Positions 52,917 to 63,986 of a DNA stretch of 64,000 nucleotides are shown here, piece after piece. Under the pieces are notes generated by a model. That model made no database searches and was not told the DNA's origin. It saw only the letters and a program-made list of their open reading frames with translations. The translations under genes were made by a program, and so were the position numbers. The first letter of the stretch is position 1. The number at the start of each line of letters is the position of its first letter. This stretch comes from Candidatus Zhuqueibacterota bacterium (GTDB lineage Bacteria > Zhuqueibacterota > Zhuqueibacteria > Oceanimicrobiales > Oceanimicrobiaceae): positions 1-64,000 of the forward strand of contig JAJDAG010000037.1 of NCBI GenBank assembly GCA_029262005.1. The letters are read 5' to 3'.

Positions 52917-53252
52917 TTAGAGTAGCTTACCCAATGGACCTAGATCGATGTTGAGTTCTTCGTCCATGAGACCAAAATGTTCTTTCAACTCCTCCATTTT
53001 ATCTTCCAGACGCATCAAGGTAAGCCCTAATATTTCCACTTCCTCAGAAGAAAGACTCTCGTTTTCTACTCGACGAAGTGCCTGTTTCTCAAGCAGCTTT
53101 CTAATCAACTCAATCAAAGTTAAAACCAGTTTACCCAAACCTTGTTCAACTTTATCCGGATCAAGGTTAATTTTTGGTGGCAAAGCTGTGCCTGGGTCTG
53201 TATCTTGTAATTTTATTTCTGTCAAATTTTGGCAATCTTTGGACTTTTCCAT
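52917..53252 (-). CDS. gvpK: Gas vesicle protein GvpK
   Basis: INLDPDKVEQGLGKLVLTLIELIRKLLEKQALRRVENESLSSEEVEILGLTLMRLEDKMEELKEHFGL. Confidence 0.93.
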   Translation of the reverse strand: MEKSKDCQNLTEIKLQDTDPGTALPPKINLDPDKVEQGLGKLVLTLIELIRKLLEKQALRRVENESLSSEEVEILGLTLMRLEDKMEELKEHFGLMDEELNIDLGPLGKLL

Positions 53253-54305: not shown

Positions 54306-54782
54306 TTACTTTTCTTTTTTTAAGGGATGCAAGGTAATTTCCATGATTTCGTTATTAAGTAAAAACTGTATGTTACCCGGGTCAATTTGAAATGGAATTA
54401 ATACCTCTTTAATAAATTTTCTTTTGCCTGATACGGTGCTGCCTATGGCCTCGATTATAAAGACATCGCCCTCAACGTTGACCTGGACATCTTCTTTTTT
54501 ATGGACGCCTGGTATTTCGGCTATCACCATGGCCAATTCAGCTTCCTCAAATACCTCCGTATTGGGTTCTTGAACCTTGTCAACCAAAAGTGTCTTTTGG
54601 TACCTTGCAAATTTGGGTTCCGGCACAAAGACCCAGGCTTTGGGTTCGTTTGTCCTGGGTCCCGATTTGCGTGCTGATTGCTGTATGGCGTCAAAAGAAC
54701 TTTGGCTCCTGAAATCACCTTTTTCAGCTTTCCTGCGGAGATTTCTGGATGTTTTTATGTCTTTATACCCTTTGACACGCAT
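54306..54782 (-). CDS. Hsp20/GvpH-like protein
   Basis: [33 protein letters not shown]...[31 protein letters not shown] alpha-crystallin-like. Confidence 0.8.
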
Positions 54783-56904
54783 GTTCTAAAGCTTCTTTGA
54801 AATAGCTCATTTCGATTTTGAATTTGCGCAAATCAAATTTCTCATCATCATGGGACGCCACCATTTTGCGTATGGCTATCATTGATGCCACGCGACAGAT
54901 TGCCTCGATATCGGCACCAACTAATCCTTCGGTTTTCGTAGCTAAAAGTTTAATATTTATATTTTTAGCCAAAGGTTTATCCCTGAGATGCACTTTGAAT
55001 ATTTTTTCCCGGGCCTTAACATCAGGGGCCGGCAGCTCAACCAGATAGTCAAACCGGCCCGGCCGCAGTACTGCGGGGTCAATGATGTCCACGCGGTTGG
55101 TTGCCGCTAACACCACCACATCCTTTAGTCCTTCAATGCCGTCCAACTCTGTCAATAATTGGCTGATCACCCGCTCGGTCACGTGAGAATCGCTCCCCCC
55201 AGATCCCCGAACCGGTGCAATCGCATCGATTTCGTCAAAAAAAAGGATACAGGGAGATGCCTGACGTGCTTTTTTAAACAGTTCTCTGACGCCCTTCTCG
55301 CTGTCGCCTACCCATTTTGACAATAGCTCCGGGCCCTTGATGGAGATGAAGTTGGTCTCGCTTTCGGTGGCCGCCGCTTTTGCCAGCAAAGTCTTTCCAG
55401 TTCCGGGGGGGCCGTAAAGCAAAATGCCTTTAGACGGGCTTGTCTTCGAAATTTCAAACAGTTCGCCATACTTGAGAGGCCATTCGATGGCCTCAATCAA
55501 CTGCTGTTTTACCTCTTCTAAACCACCAACTTGCTCCCACTTCACATTCGGCACTTCCGTGAAAACTTCTCGTATGGCTGAGGGTTCCACGTCTTTAATG
55601 GCGTCTTGGAAATGCTGCATGGTTACTTCCAGTTCCAACAGAGTTTCATAGGGTATCGAATCCATCTCAAACTCAATTTTAGGAAATAACATTCGCAAAG
55701 CCTGCATGGCAGCTTCCCGGCACAAGGCTGCTAAATCAGCTCCTACAAATCCGTGCGTAACTTCTGCCAATCTGGTTAAATCCACATCTTCCCCAAGAGG
55801 CATCCCGCGTGTGTGAATTTCTAAAACCTCCTGCCGCCCATTTTTGTCGGGAATTCCAATGGTTATTTCGCGGTCAAAACGTCCCGGACGTCGAAGCGCC
55901 GGGTCAATGGCGTTAGGAATATTCGTAGCGCCGATCACGATAACATTCCCTCGATTCGATAATCCATCCATTAAAGCTAAGAGCTGTGCAACGACGCGCT
56001 TTTCCACATCCCCTACAACCGACTCCCGTTTCGGGGCAATGGCATCAATTTCATCAAGAAAAATAATGCTGGGCGCCTCCTTGCTTGCTTGCTCAAAAAT
56101 TCCACGCAGTTTGGCTTCGCTTTCGCCATAAAATTTATGAATGACCTCCGGACCATTGATTGCGAAAAAGGAGGCTTCGGTCTCGTTGGCTACGGCTCTC
56201 GCAATTAAAGTCTTTCCAGTACCCGGGGGACCCAACAGTAAAACACCTTTGGGTGGATCAATGCCTAGTCTGTCGAAGATTTGTGGATACTTAAGCGGCA
56301 GCTCAATCATTTCCCGAATTCGCTGGATTTCCTTATGAAGTCCACCAATATCCTCGTAGGCAATTTTATGACCTGTTCGCTGCTCGCCTTCCCCGGTTTT
56401 TATCTGTATCAAGGTGCCGGGCTGGACGATCACGACGCCTTGGGGCACCGCATCCAGCACTGTAAAATCCTGAGAGCGGGAACCCACGAGATTAGCACGA
56501 ATCTGATCCCCTCTAACCAGAGGTAACCCTTCAATTAAGCGGCCTATATATCTGCTGTCTCTTTCCTTTTGTCCCCCTGGGAGAAGAGTTTGAGGATCCA
56601 GTATAATTTTGCTTGCCGCCTTGAATGGTACCTTTCGCAGTTTTACCCTTTCATCCAATCCAACTTTAGCATTTTCCCGCAACAGACCGTCCATTTGGAT
56701 TAACTTTTTCCCGCGATTGTCTGCGTAGGTGGGCATTAACTTTGCTACCGTCGTTCTTTTGCCATTAATCTCCACAATGTCCCCAACTTCGGCCCCAATT
56801 TCTTTCATATCTTGAGGATCGATTCGGGCAATACCTCGCCCGACATCTTTAGGCAAAGATTCAGAAACTCGCAACGCCTTGTAAGCGTTTTCTTTCATAT
56901 TCAT
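54763..56904 (-). CDS. CDC48/p97 (VAT)-type double AAA+ ATPase
   Basis: CDC48-N-like start; two AAA modules: [22 protein letters not shown] / [15 protein letters not shown] and [22 protein letters not shown] / [15 protein letters not shown], with arginine-finger [10 protein letters not shown] and [10 protein letters not shown]. Confidence 0.95.
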
Positions 56905-57814
56905 TTCCTAAAAGACATTTAAATTTTCGTAAATGTTCAAGACCCCGAACCTGATTGTCTTGCTCGGGAATCTCATCGACTCTAAATTCAGTAAACGTAT
57001 CGCGTACTTCTGCTATGTAGCGCTGCTGTTCTTCCGACTTTCTTCTGCAAACGCGACAGTTGGATTCGTCGGTGACCAAAACCCGATTGATCAGAATTTG
57101 CTTTGCCGGTATCCTCTGTCGACTTAATGCGGTGATAAGTCGCCTGGTTTCATCGATAACGATTCTTTCCGGCAAAGTTACCACCACAAAATGACATTGC
57201 TGCGGGTCTTGAAATAAAGCATACAATTTCTTAATTGATTTTTTCATGTTAAAAAGAAAATCATCCGTGCTATTCGTTTGGCTCCGGCCAGAGAATCGGG
57301 ATACAAAATAGATATACTTCAGACGCAGCTTGGCTAGAATTTTAATCCAGTGATCCAGCAACTCAGGCATTTCCAAAAGTCTTAATGCGTGTCCTGTTGG
57401 AGCGGTATCGAGAACATAGCGGTCAAATTCATTTGCTTCTATAAAATCAAGCATCTTAATCAATGCTATCACTTCGTCAAGACCGGGTATGCTCAAGGTG
57501 CCAATATCTTCAAGGTCTGTTTCATCTAAATAAGTAGCTGTGCTCAATATCTCTTTAATATGTTGACCAAATTCTTCCTTGAAACTAAGCAGGTTTTTGT
57601 CGGCGTCAATTTCAATGGCAGATAGAGAATCGAGCCCGGAGACTTTTTTAATCCGGTTTCCAATCGTTTGATTCAGACAGTCAGAAAGAGAGTGAGCCGG
57701 ATCTGCGGAAAGCAGGAGCGTTTTTTCTTCAATAAGTGCATATTGGATGGCGGTAGCAGCAGCACAGGATGTCTTGCCCACGCCTCCTTTTCCGCCAAAT
57801 ATCGTTAATGTCAT
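56861..57814 (-). CDS. ArsA/GET3-like ATPase
   Basis: [22 protein letters not shown] deviant Walker [50 protein letters not shown]. Confidence 0.9.
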
Positions 57815-58335
57815 TTATCAAGCCTAATCTCGAGAATTCCATTTTTAAAAGCATAAAACAAAGAATCCGGCTTTACTTTTGCCGGGAGTAAAATTTCCTT
57901 TTGATATTTTCTCTTAGGGTTCTGTGCGCTGATAGTAAGCATATCGCCCTGCAAATCTACCTTCACGTCCTTTTTTTGTACACCCGGCATTTCTACAATC
58001 ACCTGGACGATTTTTTCTTCATCGAATATGTCTGACATGGGCTCGCGAATTTCTTCTACGACCGGGCCTTTGGGGGTCTTTTTTATGTTTCCAAATGTTT
58101 CAACTTCAGGTGTCCCACCCAGGCCGGTTTTTACTGAGAAGCCATAGACACCTTTTAGATCTTTTAGTGCGCCTTCTCCGGTAAACTCTTTTGTACCTTC
58201 AACAGTTGATTGGCCCTTTTCTGCCATTTCAGAAACCAATTCTACCAGATTTCCAATACCTTTGAACAGGCCGCCGAGACCCAAATCTAAATTTATCTGG
58301 GGCTCTTCTTCTTTTCTTTTGTTTTTTTTATTCAT
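57811..58335 (-). CDS. gvpH: Gas vesicle protein GvpH-like (Hsp20 family)
   Basis: LGGLFKGIGNLVELVSEMAEKG; VIVEMPGVQKKDVKVDLQGDMLTISAQNPKRKYQKEILLPAKV. Confidence 0.85.
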   Translation of the reverse strand: MNKKNKRKEEEPQINLDLGLGGLFKGIGNLVELVSEMAEKGQSTVEGTKEFTGEGALKDLKGVYGFSVKTGLGGTPEVETFGNIKKTPKGPVVEEIREPMSDIFDEEKIVQVIVEMPGVQKKDVKVDLQGDMLTISAQNPKRKYQKEILLPAKVKPDSLFYAFKNGILEIRLDK

Positions 58336-58661
58336 TGTGTCATCCTCTTATTTAATATTCTTTTATTTACTATTTCTATATTGTCTTCTATTCTATTTAG
58401 CCGATCCCTGAGCCGCTGATTGTCTTCTTGAAGCTCTTTGGCTTGGGTTGAGAGATACGAGTCATTCTCCCACCAGTTAATCCCCATTTCCATGGCTTTG
58501 TCTACTGAGGCCACCAATAATCTAATTTTGATTTTAAGCAGCTCAACATCAGCCAGGTAAATGGAAATATCACCTGCGATGACAATCCCTTTATCTAAAA
58601 CCCGTTCCAGGATGTCGGCTAAGTTGGTACTGTCAACACTATGGGTTATTTTGTCAGCCAT
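58332..58661 (-). CDS. gvpJ: GvpA/J/M-family gas vesicle protein, GvpJ-like
   Basis: TNLADILERVLDKGIVIAGDISIYLADVELLKIKIRLLVASVDKAMEMGINWWE plus C-terminal coiled coil. Confidence 0.88.
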   Translation of the reverse strand: MADKITHSVDSTNLADILERVLDKGIVIAGDISIYLADVELLKIKIRLLVASVDKAMEMGINWWENDSYLSTQAKELQEDNQRLRDRLNRIEDNIEIVNKRILNKRMTQ

Positions 58662-58718: not shown

Positions 58719-58904
58719 TTACTTACGTTCAAGTCGTTTTTTTAACAACATTTCCTGGCGCTCTATGCGCTCTATGCGCTCTTGTTCGTTTTTCCTTTCT
58801 CTGTCTTTTTGAACCAGCCTTCCACAGACTTTCGGCGCTGAATGCATAGATTTAATGTTTTTGCGTGTCCTGATTTGTAAAGAAGTGATAGGCTTCATCA
58901 TCAA
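58719..58904 (-). CDS. Small basic protein in gas vesicle operon
   Basis: 61-aa ORF between two gvpJ-like genes; 4-nt overlap with the upstream ORF; C-terminal ERIERIERQEMLLKKRLERK. Confidence 0.5.
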   Translation of the reverse strand: MMMKPITSLQIRTRKNIKSMHSAPKVCGRLVQKDRERKNEQERIERIERQEMLLKKRLERK

Positions 58905-59137
58905 GCGATCTCCATGTTTTCGGTGTTTTTATAATTTCCCAAACGAAGATCTTCAATACTCTCAATAGCTGTGATCAGCACTCGTAAATCTATGTACACT
59001 AAATCGATGTCAGCGACCGAGATGGTAATGTCTCCGGCAATGACCACACCTTTATTTAACACTCTGTCCAATATATCGACAAGGCTGACGTGTTTTGTGC
59101 TGCTTGTAATATCACTGGAAGTGTGGACCCTGTGCAT
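58901..59137 (-). CDS. GvpA/J/M-family gas vesicle protein, GvpM/J-like
   Basis: VSLVDILDRVLNKGVVIAGDITISVADIDLVYIDLRVLITAIESIEDL. Confidence 0.85.
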   Translation of the reverse strand: MHRVHTSSDITSSTKHVSLVDILDRVLNKGVVIAGDITISVADIDLVYIDLRVLITAIESIEDLRLGNYKNTENMEIA

Positions 59138-59148
59138 ACTGAGAACCC

Positions 59149-60000
59149 TTAAATAATAGCGAAACTGTTCGGCGGCCAGGCTCGATCTTCAAATGTGAAG
59201 CCATCCGGCTCATGTCGCTTTTGCAGCCTTTTTAACTGATCTAAAAATCCTATTAGCTCTTTTTTTTCTACTAAAAAAGCCGCTCTAAGCACCAGTTCAC
59301 GATCACCGGATTTCTTTTCGATGATTTTATTTAAACATGCGTCCTCAGCAACGGCTTCCAGTTTCCAGTAGCTTGTTTGAGTAACCTCTCCTATGTGCGC
59401 CACCATTTTCTCCTCACCGGCATATTCCTGCTTTTTTTTCAAGATGTAGGCCAAACCAGGAGATTTGATATCTGATTTCTTTTCAGGAGTATTACTTTTT
59501 TCGTCTGCGCTTTTTATATAATTTTTTAGATTTTCTTTTTTGCAAAATATTTTGACCTCTATTTCCATCTTTCCAAACAACTTATTCAAAATGTTAATAA
59601 ACTTCTCATAGTTGTCTTTCACCATCTCTTTGACCCGGGCTTCGCTTTTAAAAATTGTACAAAAGTTCATCGGGAGGAGGTTGTGATCCTGCATCAGAAG
59701 TTCTATTTTCTCTTCATGAGCCCGAACGCGGCGGTCAATCCATTGCAATTCCTCAGCTTCAATTTTTTCATGAATGCGCTCAGGGTTAAATTCCGTCAAT
59801 GATACCCGACTGACAACCGCTGTCAAGTTTTCATACGGAACGGTATAAATGGGAAATCGGTTGTCGATGCCGAGAAGCATCCTATCCACTAATTTAACGT
59901 TATCCTGCCTCGAAAGAATACAGTACACGTAAATCCCGATGTCCTCTTCCCAATATTCGCCTTTGACGGGCACATGGCTAACAGTCTTTACTGCGGTCAT
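59149..60000 (-). CDS. Gas vesicle protein GvpF/GvpL family
   Basis: IYVYCILS...AVVSRVSLTEF...LLPMNFCTIFKSEARVKEMV; AAFLVEKKELIGFLDQLKRLQ. Confidence 0.88.
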   Translation of the reverse strand: MTAVKTVSHVPVKGEYWEEDIGIYVYCILSRQDNVKLVDRMLLGIDNRFPIYTVPYENLTAVVSRVSLTEFNPERIHEKIEAEELQWIDRRVRAHEEKIELLMQDHNLLPMNFCTIFKSEARVKEMVKDNYEKFINILNKLFGKMEIEVKIFCKKENLKNYIKSADEKSNTPEKKSDIKSPGLAYILKKKQEYAGEEKMVAHIGEVTQTSYWKLEAVAEDACLNKIIEKKSGDRELVLRAAFLVEKKELIGFLDQLKRLQKRHEPDGFTFEDRAWPPNSFAII

Positions 60001-60083: not shown

Positions 60084-60329
60084 TTACTCGACGATCTCTC
60101 CCTCGCTTTCCTGTATGGCTGTAATTTTTTCCACTATTTCTATTTCTTGCGCTTTGTATTCCTCTTCGCCAATTTCGTCCAGTTCGTACCTCAGTTGCAG
60201 CTCCAACAATTTTCTTTGCCAGTGTTCTTTATCACTCAATTCTTGATCGACATATTTTTGCAGCTCTTTGAAAATCCCTAATAACCCTTTGAAGGGTAAA
60301 ATTAATATATCATCCACCAGAAAAGCCAT
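60084..60329 (-). CDS. gvpG: Gas vesicle protein GvpG
   Basis: MAFLVDDILILPFKGLLGIFKELQKYVDQEL...LLELQLRYELDEIGEEEYKAQE. Confidence 0.9.
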   Translation of the reverse strand: MAFLVDDILILPFKGLLGIFKELQKYVDQELSDKEHWQRKLLELQLRYELDEIGEEEYKAQEIEIVEKITAIQESEGEIVE

Positions 60330-60345: not shown

Positions 60346-61116
60346 TCAGTTCAGTTGCAACTCAGCAAGATTGATAACGATTTCAATAAAGTTATAAGGC
60401 GGAATCGGGCCGACATATTTAATTTTCAACCGTCCGTTGTTGATTTCACCAAGTTTCTGCACCGTCTCGTCAATAAATTTTTCCTGATTTTTATCTGCCA
60501 AAAATGCGGCATTAAAAATCATTTTATCGCCAATAATTTTGTTCGTCTTGTACTGGGTGTAGAGAGTTTTAAATTGGCTTAGTAGTTCTTCTCCTTCCCG
60601 CTCTCGTTTTTGCTCGAGGGCTTCTTCCACCAATTTCCCGATTTCAATTCTTTGAAAATAGGTGCTCTCCGGTGGCTGCGAAGCCAATTCGCCTCTCAAT
60701 TTCAGTATGTTGTCATTCTGTTGCAGGATTTCCTCATAGCCGATTTCACCGTTCCAAAATACTTTCAAACCCAGTTCTCGCTTTCCATTCATGGCCGCCA
60801 AATTTTCTTTAAACTCAGCATATCTCTTTTCCAAAATCGTCTGCACACTGGTTTCATCTTTGGCAATGGTGCCAAAGCGAACAGGCAGCGGAGTCAGATT
60901 TTTAGACATGGCCTCTTCAACCACTCGCTGATGTGCCAGATAATGGTCGCTAATAAAAGAATAACTGACTATGGGCGAATCGCTAACCACGATGCCAATA
61001 TCTTTATAGTGCAGGCTGCGCACTTGTGAAAGCGTTTTACCGATGTTCTTCGACTTAAAGTCTTGACTTTTCTCTCCCTCAACAATACAGTAAATATACT
61101 TGCCTGTCTCTTCCAT
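60346..61116 (-). CDS. Gas vesicle protein GvpF/GvpL family
   Basis: KYIYCIVEGE...DIGIVVSDSPIVSY...LTPLPVRFGTIAKDE; AAFLADKNQEKFIDETVQKLGEINNGRLKIKYVGPIPPYNFIEI. Confidence 0.93.
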   Translation of the reverse strand: MEETGKYIYCIVEGEKSQDFKSKNIGKTLSQVRSLHYKDIGIVVSDSPIVSYSFISDHYLAHQRVVEEAMSKNLTPLPVRFGTIAKDETSVQTILEKRYAEFKENLAAMNGKRELGLKVFWNGEIGYEEILQQNDNILKLRGELASQPPESTYFQRIEIGKLVEEALEQKREREGEELLSQFKTLYTQYKTNKIIGDKMIFNAAFLADKNQEKFIDETVQKLGEINNGRLKIKYVGPIPPYNFIEIVINLAELQLN

Positions 61117-62166
61117 TTAACTATCCACACAATCTTTGTTATTTGATTCGTCATTAACTAAAACCGTGTCTCTGATAACTTGCTCGCTAAAAGAGAAACG
61201 ATAGTTCTGACAAAAGGTCTCTAAGACGTGATAAGCCTTGGCAATAATTTTGAATTGTTCTTCCGCTTCAGGATTTTCACTGATTTTATCTGGGTGGTAC
61301 TTGACAACTAAAGTTCGGTAGGCGGACTTTATTTCCGTCATAGTTGCTTTGCAGGGAAGCCCTAATGTTTTTCTGGCTTCTTCAATCAATTCAAAGTCTG
61401 TTAAGGTGAGTTTTAAGTTGACGAAGCTGTAGGGAGGCAGTGGGCCCACATATTTGAAGTTGAGCTGTCCTTCATATTTGCCGGCTAATTTATTAACCTT
61501 TTTATCAAAGTCAGGCTCGCCTTTTTTGCTCACCAAAAAAGAGCCGTTGAAAATCATGTCTTCGCCCAGTAATTTGCCGTGGGAAAAATTGTAATTGCCA
61601 TTTCGAAGTGTATAAAGAATGTCTGCATTATAGATTTTTTCTTTAGAGGAAACGGCTTCGTGGATGACTTTACCCATTTCAATTCTGGCCAGGAGATTAT
61701 CTCCTTCAGAACCAGAACTAAGCGCATTTTTCAGTTCGACAACTTTTTTGTCTGTGCCGGCAATTTCTTGAATCCAGTTTTGTTTGTTGCCAACGGCTTG
61801 CACAACCAATTCTACTTTTCCTTTTACTCTGTTCAGAACCGATTTGAATTGAATATAGGCGCGTTCCAAAATCATTTTAACGTCTTCATCACTTTCAGCA
61901 ATGTTTCCGAATTTCATCGGTGCCACTGTGAAGTTTTTCATAACCGTTTCATTTACTCTTTGGTGCGCAACGATCAACTCCCTTAAGTGATTCTCTTCAA
62001 GCCGATCAAATTCCACAACAGGATGGTTGCTGACCACCGCTGCAATGTCATTAAAGTGCAGAGTGGTGACTTCATTGCCTGACCCACCAATTCCAATCGC
62101 GCCGAAATTCTTTTTTTGGCTGGCCCCAATAACGCCATAGATATATTTGCCTTGTTTTTCTTTCAT
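61117..62166 (-). CDS. GvpF/GvpL family protein fused to C-terminal DnaJ J domain
   Basis: GvpF/L: KYIYGVIGA...VAPMKFGNIAESDEDV...LNFKYVGPLPPYSFVNL; J domain: ARKTLGLPCKATMTEIKSAYRTLVVKYHPDKISENPEAEEQFKIIAKAYHVLE with HPD. Confidence 0.93.
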   Translation of the reverse strand: MKEKQGKYIYGVIGASQKKNFGAIGIGGSGNEVTTLHFNDIAAVVSNHPVVEFDRLEENHLRELIVAHQRVNETVMKNFTVAPMKFGNIAESDEDVKMILERAYIQFKSVLNRVKGKVELVVQAVGNKQNWIQEIAGTDKKVVELKNALSSGSEGDNLLARIEMGKVIHEAVSSKEKIYNADILYTLRNGNYNFSHGKLLGEDMIFNGSFLVSKKGEPDFDKKVNKLAGKYEGQLNFKYVGPLPPYSFVNLKLTLTDFELIEEARKTLGLPCKATMTEIKSAYRTLVVKYHPDKISENPEAEEQFKIIAKAYHVLETFCQNYRFSFSEQVIRDTVLVNDESNNKDCVDS

Positions 62167-62288: not shown

Positions 62289-62360
62289 TCCCCCTTCGAA
62301 GGGGGGATTAAGGATCTCCCTTTGCAGAGCCTGCCCTGAGCTTGCCGAAGGGGAGACAGG
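62289..62360. repeat. Intergenic palindromic repeat pair inside the gas vesicle operon
   Basis: cccccttcgaaggggg perfect palindrome (62290-62305) followed by gcctgccctgagcttgccgaagggg, a REP-like motif common in bacterial genomes. Confidence 0.75.
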
Positions 62361-62402: not shown

Positions 62403-62792
62403 TTAGAATTCTGCTTTTTTCGCTTTCACTTCCACAACGCCCTTGCCACGGCAATCTAAGCATGAAAGTTGGCTTGAGCTTCTGCCGGTGCCGCGACATT
62501 TGGAACAAACCTCGACAGGTTCTTTGACCAGAACGACCCCTTTTCCCTTGCAGGAAGTGCAAGTAACGGTACTTCCTGAATGGCCCACGCCGCTGCCTTG
62601 ACAGAAAGCACACCTGACGACCGAACCTTCGATGTGATTTTCACCTTCGCCGCGGCAAACTGAACACTTGCATTTAGTTCTCGGGGTAAATCCCGTGCTT
62701 CTGCAATAACCGCACTTGTAAACGCCGTCTTTCATAACTTCACCGACACCGCCCAGTCTTTTACCTTGCCACTTATACGTTTCCCAGTCCAT
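62403..62792 (-). CDS. DnaJ-type zinc-finger (CXXCXGXG-repeat) protein
   Basis: Six motifs: CGYCRSTG, CSVCRGEG, CAFCQGSG, CTSCKGKG, CSKCRGTG, CLDCRGKG. Confidence 0.88.
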   Translation of the reverse strand: MDWETYKWQGKRLGGVGEVMKDGVYKCGYCRSTGFTPRTKCKCSVCRGEGENHIEGSVVRCAFCQGSGVGHSGSTVTCTSCKGKGVVLVKEPVEVCSKCRGTGRSSSQLSCLDCRGKGVVEVKAKKAEF

Positions 62793-62805: not shown

Positions 62806-63339
62806 TTAAATTTTAGTTAATGACACTTGTGGTTTGACCCAATCTTTTGAGCTTAATTCTTTGATTTTAGGCGATTGCCAATTTTGACCGCTAACATCCC
62901 AACTCTTTAGCCGACGTCGTCTCTGTTTGGCCTCTGCTTCCTTTTGCAATTTTTCCATAGCACTTGAAATTTCCTCACAGGTGAATTTACCTTTGGCTCT
63001 CCTAAGCAGTTCATCTTTTCGGCCCTTAGTATTAATAACTTTGGACTTCAGCAGATACGTTAAGCCTCTGTATTTTAGAAGAGTGAGAGCTTCTCGCGCT
63101 TGTCTCCGTTGTTTTTTTTCTTCTATTACTCGCTGCTTTTCAGCTTCTTTTTCTTCAAACCAGGCATTAATTTTTGATTCATCAAAAGACCGAGCAGGCT
63201 TCTTTCGTATTCCCAAAGCCTTTGCCCACTCCTCGGCCCGAATCTTCTTCGCTAAAGCAAAGGGTTTTAATGTTAACTTTGTTTCTCTGGTGTCATGCTT
63301 CTTCGGAAAAGCAAAGGGTTTAAATATTAATTCTGCCAT
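62806..63339 (-). CDS. Uncharacterised basic protein with SAP-like motif
   Basis: LKYRGLTYLLKSKVINTKGRKDELLRRAKGKFT resembles SAP helix-extended-helix; N-terminal duplicated KPFAFPKK/KPFALAKK. Confidence 0.6.
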   Translation of the reverse strand: MAELIFKPFAFPKKHDTRETKLTLKPFALAKKIRAEEWAKALGIRKKPARSFDESKINAWFEEKEAEKQRVIEEKKQRRQAREALTLLKYRGLTYLLKSKVINTKGRKDELLRRAKGKFTCEEISSAMEKLQKEAEAKQRRRRLKSWDVSGQNWQSPKIKELSSKDWVKPQVSLTKI

Positions 63340-63378: not shown

Positions 63379-63699
63379 TTAATAATCAAACTTTAACGTC
63401 TTCCATTCTTTGCCTTCTATCTTTGCGTTGCTGGCTGGAATTTCAACATTTCTTTCTACTGTTTTTCTAGCATCGGTTGAGTCTTCCTTAAGCACCGTAA
63501 TTTCAAGCTCAATTTCTTTCAATCGCCCATTATTTCTTTCGAGCCTTTTCTGCAATACTTTCTTTTCTTTTTCCAACCTGTCCTTCTCACTATTGAGCAT
63601 GAAAAGTCCAAGGTAATTCGATTTCTGGCCTTTTGGAATAGACCGAACTTTAGTAGTCTGACTTGTTCGTATGTTATCTAATCCAGCAATATCTGGCAT
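63379..63699 (-). CDS. Gas-vesicle-operon coiled-coil protein
   Basis: YLGLFMLNSEKDRLEKEKKVLQKRLERNNGRLKEIELEITVLKE heptad-rich; collinear with gvp genes. Confidence 0.65.
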   Translation of the reverse strand: MPDIAGLDNIRTSQTTKVRSIPKGQKSNYLGLFMLNSEKDRLEKEKKVLQKRLERNNGRLKEIELEITVLKEDSTDARKTVERNVEIPASNAKIEGKEWKTLKFDY

Positions 63700-63731: not shown

Positions 63732-63986
63732 CTACACTGCTTCCTTTCGCGGCCGCATACTCTTTCGGCTGTACCCGACGACCTCTAATTCCTGGCTCAC
63801 CTTAACTTCGTAAACAGCAACCATTTCGTCTAACGCGACTCTCCGCATATATTCAGACTCTTCTATCGTTTCTACTAATGCTTCCCAACCGTTTTCGCTG
63901 GGATTGACTTCAACGACCCGCCCGCTCTTTTCCAAAACGGTTTCAAAAAACTTAAGAACGACTTGTGTAACTTTGGCAATACTCAT
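63732..63986 (-). CDS. gvpO: Gas vesicle protein GvpO
   Basis: GRVVEVNPSENGWEALVETIEESEYMRRVALDEMVAVYEVKVSQELEVVGYSRKSM. Confidence 0.88.
   Translation of the reverse strand: MSIAKVTQVVLKFFETVLEKSGRVVEVNPSENGWEALVETIEESEYMRRVALDEMVAVYEVKVSQELEVVGYSRKSMRPRKEAV

Follow-up and report, generated by a model that had tools for sequence, protein, structure and literature searches.

GvpA is very hydrophobic, and how it stays soluble and reaches the growing gas vesicle is described as an open question (PMC10903477, PMC11445434). GvpF is a reported GvpA binder and a presumed chaperone (PMC7688916, PMC11445434). The zinc domain of DnaJ contributes to substrate binding to DnaK, and ZnJ2/BSD2, a stand-alone DnaJ-type zinc finger, is a holdase in Rubisco assembly (PMC5818400). 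ZnJ2 prevents aggregation without DnaK and has no synergy with DnaK/DnaJ/GrpE (PMC5818400). A zinc finger alone therefore need not feed Hsp70. The small, open-licence sample of gas vesicle literature examined linked neither Hsp70 nor a DnaJ-type zinc finger nor a J-domain GvpF/L to gas vesicle (gvp) clusters.

The window analyzed here is a 64,000-nucleotide stretch of DNA that makes up most of a 71,737-base contig from a genome related to candidate division KSB1. It encodes a small protein with six DnaJ-type CXXC motifs in the company of gvp genes, and this protein and its six-motif relatives are termed ZF6.

The gas vesicle cluster around ZF6

The window ZF6 gene lies in a minus-strand gvp cluster that spans contig positions of about 52,900 to 69,560 and so reaches past the window end. 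The genes are listed below with the basis of each assignment in brackets.

63732..63986, minus strand, GvpO (Pfam)
63379..63699, minus strand, Orf106, 106 aa (homologues encoded ahead of ZF6 in Chloroflexota and in a single planctomycete cluster)
62806..63339, minus strand, charged protein of 177 aa directly upstream of ZF6 (open reading frame list)
62403..62792, minus strand, window ZF6 (type I), 129 aa, six CXXC motifs, J domain absent (open reading frame list, Pfam, alignment, tree)
61117..62166, minus strand, GvpF/L-J, a fusion of GvpL_GvpF and a C-terminal J domain, 349 aa (Pfam, relatives, model)
61219..61371, minus strand, J domain of GvpF/L-J, HPD present (Pfam)
60346..61116, minus strand, GvpF/L without J domain (Pfam)
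60084..60329, minus strand, GvpG (Pfam)
59149..60000, minus strand, third GvpF/L (Pfam)
58901..59137, minus strand, GvpA-family protein, GvpM/S-like (Pfam/NCBIfam)
58332..58661, minus strand, GvpA-family protein, GvpJ-like (Pfam/NCBIfam)
57811..58335, minus strand, putative GvpH-like small heat-shock protein (named from sequence; counterparts in related clusters)
56861..57814, minus strand, putative ArsA-like ATPase (named from sequence; counterparts in related clusters)
54763..56904, minus strand, putative Cdc48-like double AAA+ ATPase (named from sequence; counterparts in related clusters)
54306..54782, minus strand, putative second small heat-shock-like protein (named from sequence)
52917..53252, minus strand, putative GvpK-like protein (named from sequence; counterparts in related clusters)

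The 177-aa charged protein has no Pfam or NCBIfam match. An earlier note on this DNA had placed the zinc finger gene immediately upstream of GvpF/L-J. It is upstream, but across a 236-bp gap that holds a palindromic repeat. A terminator scan between the two genes found none, and the RNA fold of the gap was nothing unusual (z 0.08). The gap contains, at 62289-62351, the palindromic CCCCCTTCGAAGGGGG and one CCTGAGCTTGCCGAAGG element, the latter being the only copy within the window. A second six-motif paralogue (type II) is encoded in the same cluster outside the window, beside a GvpN-like ATPase at contig positions 66506-66841 (L009:8507-8842). No Hsp70 gene was found in the cluster, and the only one found in that genome lies outside it. 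The origin of window ZF6 as a broken-off piece of the only host DnaJ was rejected, as a complete DnaJ with the J and zinc domains in one 394-aa frame exists elsewhere in the genome on contig C90.

Genes for Cdc48-like ATPases resembling 54763-56904 were seen in gvp loci of the KSB1 phylum, Chloroflexota, Planctomycetota and ANME-1. A short N-terminal [RK]DIK[TS] motif is common to unrelated gvp-cluster proteins (54306-54782 of the window, L010:14270-14776, L010:7775-8062, L024:5994-6173 and L024:6175-6540) and could be a docking peptide.

Motifs and predicted structure of ZF6

Window ZF6 has 13 Cys residues, and all but one of them belong to the six CXXC motifs, whose first residues are 27, 43, 61, 78, 96 and 111. 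Translation of the gene gives the following motifs.

62691..62714, minus strand, motif 1, CGYCRSTG (middle Gly missing)
62643..62666, minus strand, motif 2, CSVCRGEG
62589..62612, minus strand, motif 3, CAFCQGSG
62538..62561, minus strand, motif 4, CTSCKGKG
62484..62507, minus strand, motif 5, CSKCRGTG
62439..62462, minus strand, motif 6, CLDCRGKG

The protein had been described as carrying six CXXCXGXG motifs. All six CXXC cores are present, but the full pattern is exact in five and imperfect in the first. This departure is within family variation because the middle Gly of motif 1 is not invariant. An alignment of 19 ZF6 sequences from three phyla shows no variation in the 12 motif Cys or in the Gly that closes each motif. 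Beyond these 19, each of 11 more Planctomycetota ZF6 sequences has six motifs, and six is the number in all 30 relatives placed in the ZF6 tree. A chance origin of the six motifs is ruled out because 20,000 shuffles of the window ZF6 residues gave at most two (mean 0.03); the shuffles and the invariance in relatives also rule out a low-complexity origin.

Pfam DnaJ_CXXCXGXG (PF00684) scored 37.0 bits on window ZF6 and passed its cut-off of 32.7, and among solved structures the closest in sequence is 1exk, a DnaJ zinc domain (E = 6e-4). The Pfam scan of the protein found no J domain (PF00226), as had been claimed. Neither window ZF6 nor GvpF/L-J has a Pfam match to the DnaJ C-terminal substrate-binding domain or a detectable G/F region. 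Compared with a class A DnaJ, window ZF6 lacks the HPD-bearing J domain and the C-terminal domains and has six motifs in place of four. BSD2_CRD (PF25436) scored 14.5 bits, under its cut-off of 27.

The Anti-TRAP profile (PF15777) scored 25.7 bits on window ZF6 and 43.7 bits on the paralogue at 66506-66841. Anti-TRAP has a two-motif zinc unit, and ZF6 could in principle be a regulator of gvp expression that is anti-TRAP-like or senses redox state or zinc. This role is highly improbable, as window ZF6 falls under both curated cut-offs (32 bits for Pfam and 65 bits for NCBIfam RtpA, NF058604, with which it scored 29.9 bits) and carries six motifs per chain, not two.

The predicted model of window ZF6 has strands flanking the motifs at residues 23-26, 51-54, 57-60, 86-89, 93-95 and 119-121. 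Among relatives, the connectors between motifs 2 and 3 and between motifs 4 and 5 are nearly constant at 10 residues, and the other connectors are variable. The flanking strands and these near-fixed connectors therefore argue against a single nested hairpin. Two sets of motif pairings, 1-2/3-4/5-6 and 2-3/4-5/6-1, are both compatible with the predicted model and the connectors. Judging by sequence, the six motifs would presumably bind three zinc ions per ZF6, a number of four-Cys sites for which the 12 invariant Cys would suffice. Foldseek comparison of the metal-free model with solved structures returned weak matches, the first being BSD2 (6ekb, weak) and anti-TRAP (3ld0, 1.2 A over 30 columns).

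Distribution of the ZF6 family

Profile searches over 1,121 whole genomes found ZF6 in 22 genomes from four phyla, comprising 2/82 genomes of the KSB1 phylum, 8/400 of Chloroflexota, 2/247 of Halobacteriota (ANME-1) and 10/392 of Planctomycetota. ZF6 proteins mostly scored 83-168 bits and canonical DnaJs scored about 46 bits or less. Examination of the surrounding DNA showed that gvp genes adjoin ZF6 in all 22 genomes. The sole other GvpF/L-bearing genome among the 82 of the KSB1 phylum belongs to the same family as the host and also has ZF6. Searches of viral contigs and of plasmids found no ZF6 relatives. ZF6 is apparently an undescribed family that is restricted to gvp clusters in the genomes searched.

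One candidate member was rejected. The protein encoded at L072:10579-11127, a lone six-motif Halobacteriota protein, scored 53.6 bits and has no gvp genes nearby. It is a different protein, in which a two-motif unit with an RDRDG linker is repeated three times almost unchanged. In one ANME-1 locus, the gene directly after the six-motif gene encodes 59 aa with just one two-motif zinc unit (L024:5994-6173), and a degenerate counterpart is present in L071.

The GvpF/L-J fusion

A GvpF/L protein with a J domain had been reported next to the zinc finger gene, and Pfam bears this out: GvpF/L-J scored 191 bits with GvpL_GvpF and its C-terminal, HPD-bearing J domain scored 61.4 bits with PF00226 (cut-off 27.8). 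The predicted structure has a mean pLDDT of 88. Foldseek aligned the GvpF/L part of the model with solved GvpF (6l5d) at a TM of 0.83 by target length and the tail with J domains, among them that of 5nro_B, which was solved bound to DnaK (0.9 A over 52 columns). The J domain of GvpF/L-J is real.

Long C-terminal tails were screened for in 262 GvpF/L frames from gvp loci. The J-fused proteins form one group of 34 in the GvpF/L tree, with a support of only 55 at the base and 99 at an inner branch. HPD is present in 30 members and invariant in the 20 fusions that were aligned. The four HPD-less members are encoded at L177:11442-12527, L183:1459-2541, L185:9628-10650 and L187:2573-3820, and three of these four genomes keep an Hsp70 gene in a gvp locus.

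Two types of ZF6

Type I ZF6 is set apart as a clade in the ZF6 tree (support 97/99) and consists of window ZF6, the proteins of three Chloroflexota genomes and that of a single planctomycete. Most of them start with MxW.. or a similar sequence, and their first connector is short. Two of the Chloroflexota type I proteins (L069:3425-4222 and L070:9783-10439) carry a C-terminal extension of about 110-130 aa. The co-occurrence with the J-domain GvpF/L on which the earlier note had staked its case was seen in all five type I genomes, and an Hsp70 gene is on a gvp contig in four of them. The same co-occurrence holds for Chloroflexota, where GvpF/L-J is present in 8/8 ZF6 genomes vs 18/48 gvp genomes without ZF6 (p = 0.001, with kinship ignored and contigs fragmentary). 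The 56 Chloroflexota gvp genomes divide into 8 with both genes, 18 with GvpF/L-J only, 30 with neither and 0 with ZF6 only, and a degenerate J tail is found in 4 of the 30 with neither. The gene order Orf106 - ZF6 - GvpF/L-J - GvpF recurs in this phylum.

Type II ZF6 also occurs with GvpF/L-J in the KSB1 phylum and Chloroflexota. GvpF/L-J was not found in the gvp loci read of 11 type II genomes (9 Planctomycetota and 2 ANME-1), and 21 genomes (18 Chloroflexota and 3 archaea) have GvpF/L-J without ZF6. The two genes are therefore separable in evolution.

These patterns bear on the idea that ZF6 is a BSD2/ZnJ-like holdase that binds directly, and independently of Hsp70, to hydrophobic Gvp subunits or to intermediates of their assembly, with the company of GvpF/L-J reflecting shared cluster history. 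The 11 type II genomes are consistent with such an activity, as are the first Foldseek matches to anti-TRAP and, weakly, BSD2 and the prevention of aggregation by ZnJ2 without DnaK (PMC5818400). This reading is nevertheless rather unlikely, as the type I members, among them window ZF6, were found only with GvpF/L-J and mostly with an Hsp70 gene on a gvp contig.

Small modular zinc proteins are often docking units. ZF6 might be a non-chaperone, structural or scaffold protein of the vesicle or of a Gvp assembly complex, in which the zinc modules serve only as docking surfaces. The setting of type II ZF6 in Planctomycetota would suit this role: its neighbors are GvpN/GvpA or GvpJ-like genes, and a cluster can contain as many as four copies of it (G919). 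A scaffold is improbable, however, given that the motif is DnaJ-type and that type I tracks the J/Hsp70 set and not just the shell genes.

Hsp70 genes in gas vesicle loci

A search of 22 genomes located Hsp70 on gvp contigs, and the scan was then extended to all fetched gvp loci. Ten Chloroflexota or archaeal genomes have an Hsp70 gene in a gvp locus, seven with an HPD-bearing fusion and three with a degenerate J.

Hsp70 genes in gvp loci: L026:8831-10606, L202:13123-14913, L205:8994-10679, L064:2987-4501, L066:5218-6489
Further Hsp70 genes in gvp loci: L070:2615-4144, L194:7676-9304, L177:5393-7255, L183:6367-8124, L189:7538-9292

Hsp70 was found in 0/40 gvp genomes without the fusion vs the ten with J-fused or degenerate-J GvpF/L (p = 2e-4, kinship ignored). 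The association was marginal when HPD-bearing fusions alone were set against all others (p = 0.05). The Hsp70 gene directly follows GvpF/L-J in three archaea. The planctomycete locus L257 has a further, partial Hsp70 beside its gvp genes along with GvpF/L-J and type I ZF6, and one cluster in G609 combines a Cdc48-like ATPase, Hsp70, GvpF/L-J and type I ZF6.

Proposed function

Window ZF6 is proposed to be a gas-vesicle-specific, zinc-stabilized holdase or assembly chaperone that works beside a J-domain/Hsp70 arm, with a probability of about one half. This proposal builds on direct observations, namely the sequence and its motif conservation, the exclusive gvp location among the genomes searched, the presence of GvpF/L-J and in most cases Hsp70 wherever type I was found, and the J fold and HPD of the fusion. 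The GvpF/L domain of the fusion would capture newly made, highly hydrophobic GvpA-family subunits, and the tethered J domain would load them onto Hsp70. Several Chloroflexota clusters, a single planctomycete cluster and some archaeal ones would supply a dedicated Hsp70 for this step, and the window genome would use the general DnaK. ZF6 would do in trans what the zinc finger of DnaJ does in cis, and would hold the client or aid its handover into the growing shell. We infer the zinc occupancy, the client identity, a physical contact of ZF6 with the J/Hsp70 arm and the order of action.

Several points count against a chaperone team. ZF6 and GvpF/L-J are separable, and the window genome has the 236-bp gap and no cluster Hsp70. 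Three relatives that keep a gvp-locus Hsp70 have lost HPD, type I comprises five genomes, the statistics ignore kinship, and the ZF6 model is zinc-free with weak solved matches.

The earlier note had regarded the two proteins as a split DnaJ dedicated to gas vesicles. The dedication agrees with the gvp-only location, the presence of GvpF/L-J in 5/5 type I genomes and Hsp70 on several gvp contigs, but "split DnaJ" fits only loosely because neither piece has the DnaJ C-terminal domains and the pieces are evolutionarily separable; a G/F region is also missing, and the host has its complete DnaJ. More tentatively, some gvp clusters may encode a complete private Hsp70 machine, whose parts would be a dedicated Hsp70, the GvpF/L client binder with its fused J domain, and type I ZF6 as the detached six-motif zinc finger. 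DnaJ functions would then be split over genes and rewired to one client, the shell protein, and the window genome would keep the J domain and zinc finger and borrow the general DnaK.

Comparison with known systems

Window ZF6 shares CXXCXGXG motifs with the Cys-rich domain of class A DnaJ (PF00684), but it has six motifs instead of four, is a stand-alone gene without J and C-terminal domains, and belongs to a family found only in gvp clusters among the genomes searched. Anti-TRAP (RtpA) resembles ZF6 in its two-motif zinc unit and in the match of the ZF6 model to 3ld0; it differs as a TRAP regulator of about 53 aa with one zinc unit, compared with six motifs per chain in ZF6. GvpF and GvpL are encoded side by side with ZF6, which lacks a GvpF/L domain, and the J domain on the neighboring GvpF/L is an addition not found mentioned in the gas vesicle literature examined. 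A cluster-encoded zinc finger accessory family and a J-domain/Hsp70 arm would make the question of GvpA delivery directly testable, and the added parts may matter for gas vesicles transplanted as imaging reporters.

Chloroplast BSD2/ZnJ2 is likewise a stand-alone, J-less DnaJ-type zinc finger that serves one hard-to-assemble complex, Rubisco (PMC5818400). BSD2/ZnJ2 has four motifs, whereas ZF6 has six, is found in a prokaryotic gas vesicle setting and occurs together with a J-fused client binder, to which several genomes add an Hsp70. For bacteria and archaea, ZF6 would provide a counterpart to the pairing of BSD2 with Rubisco, in which a detached DnaJ zinc finger serves a single assembly line.
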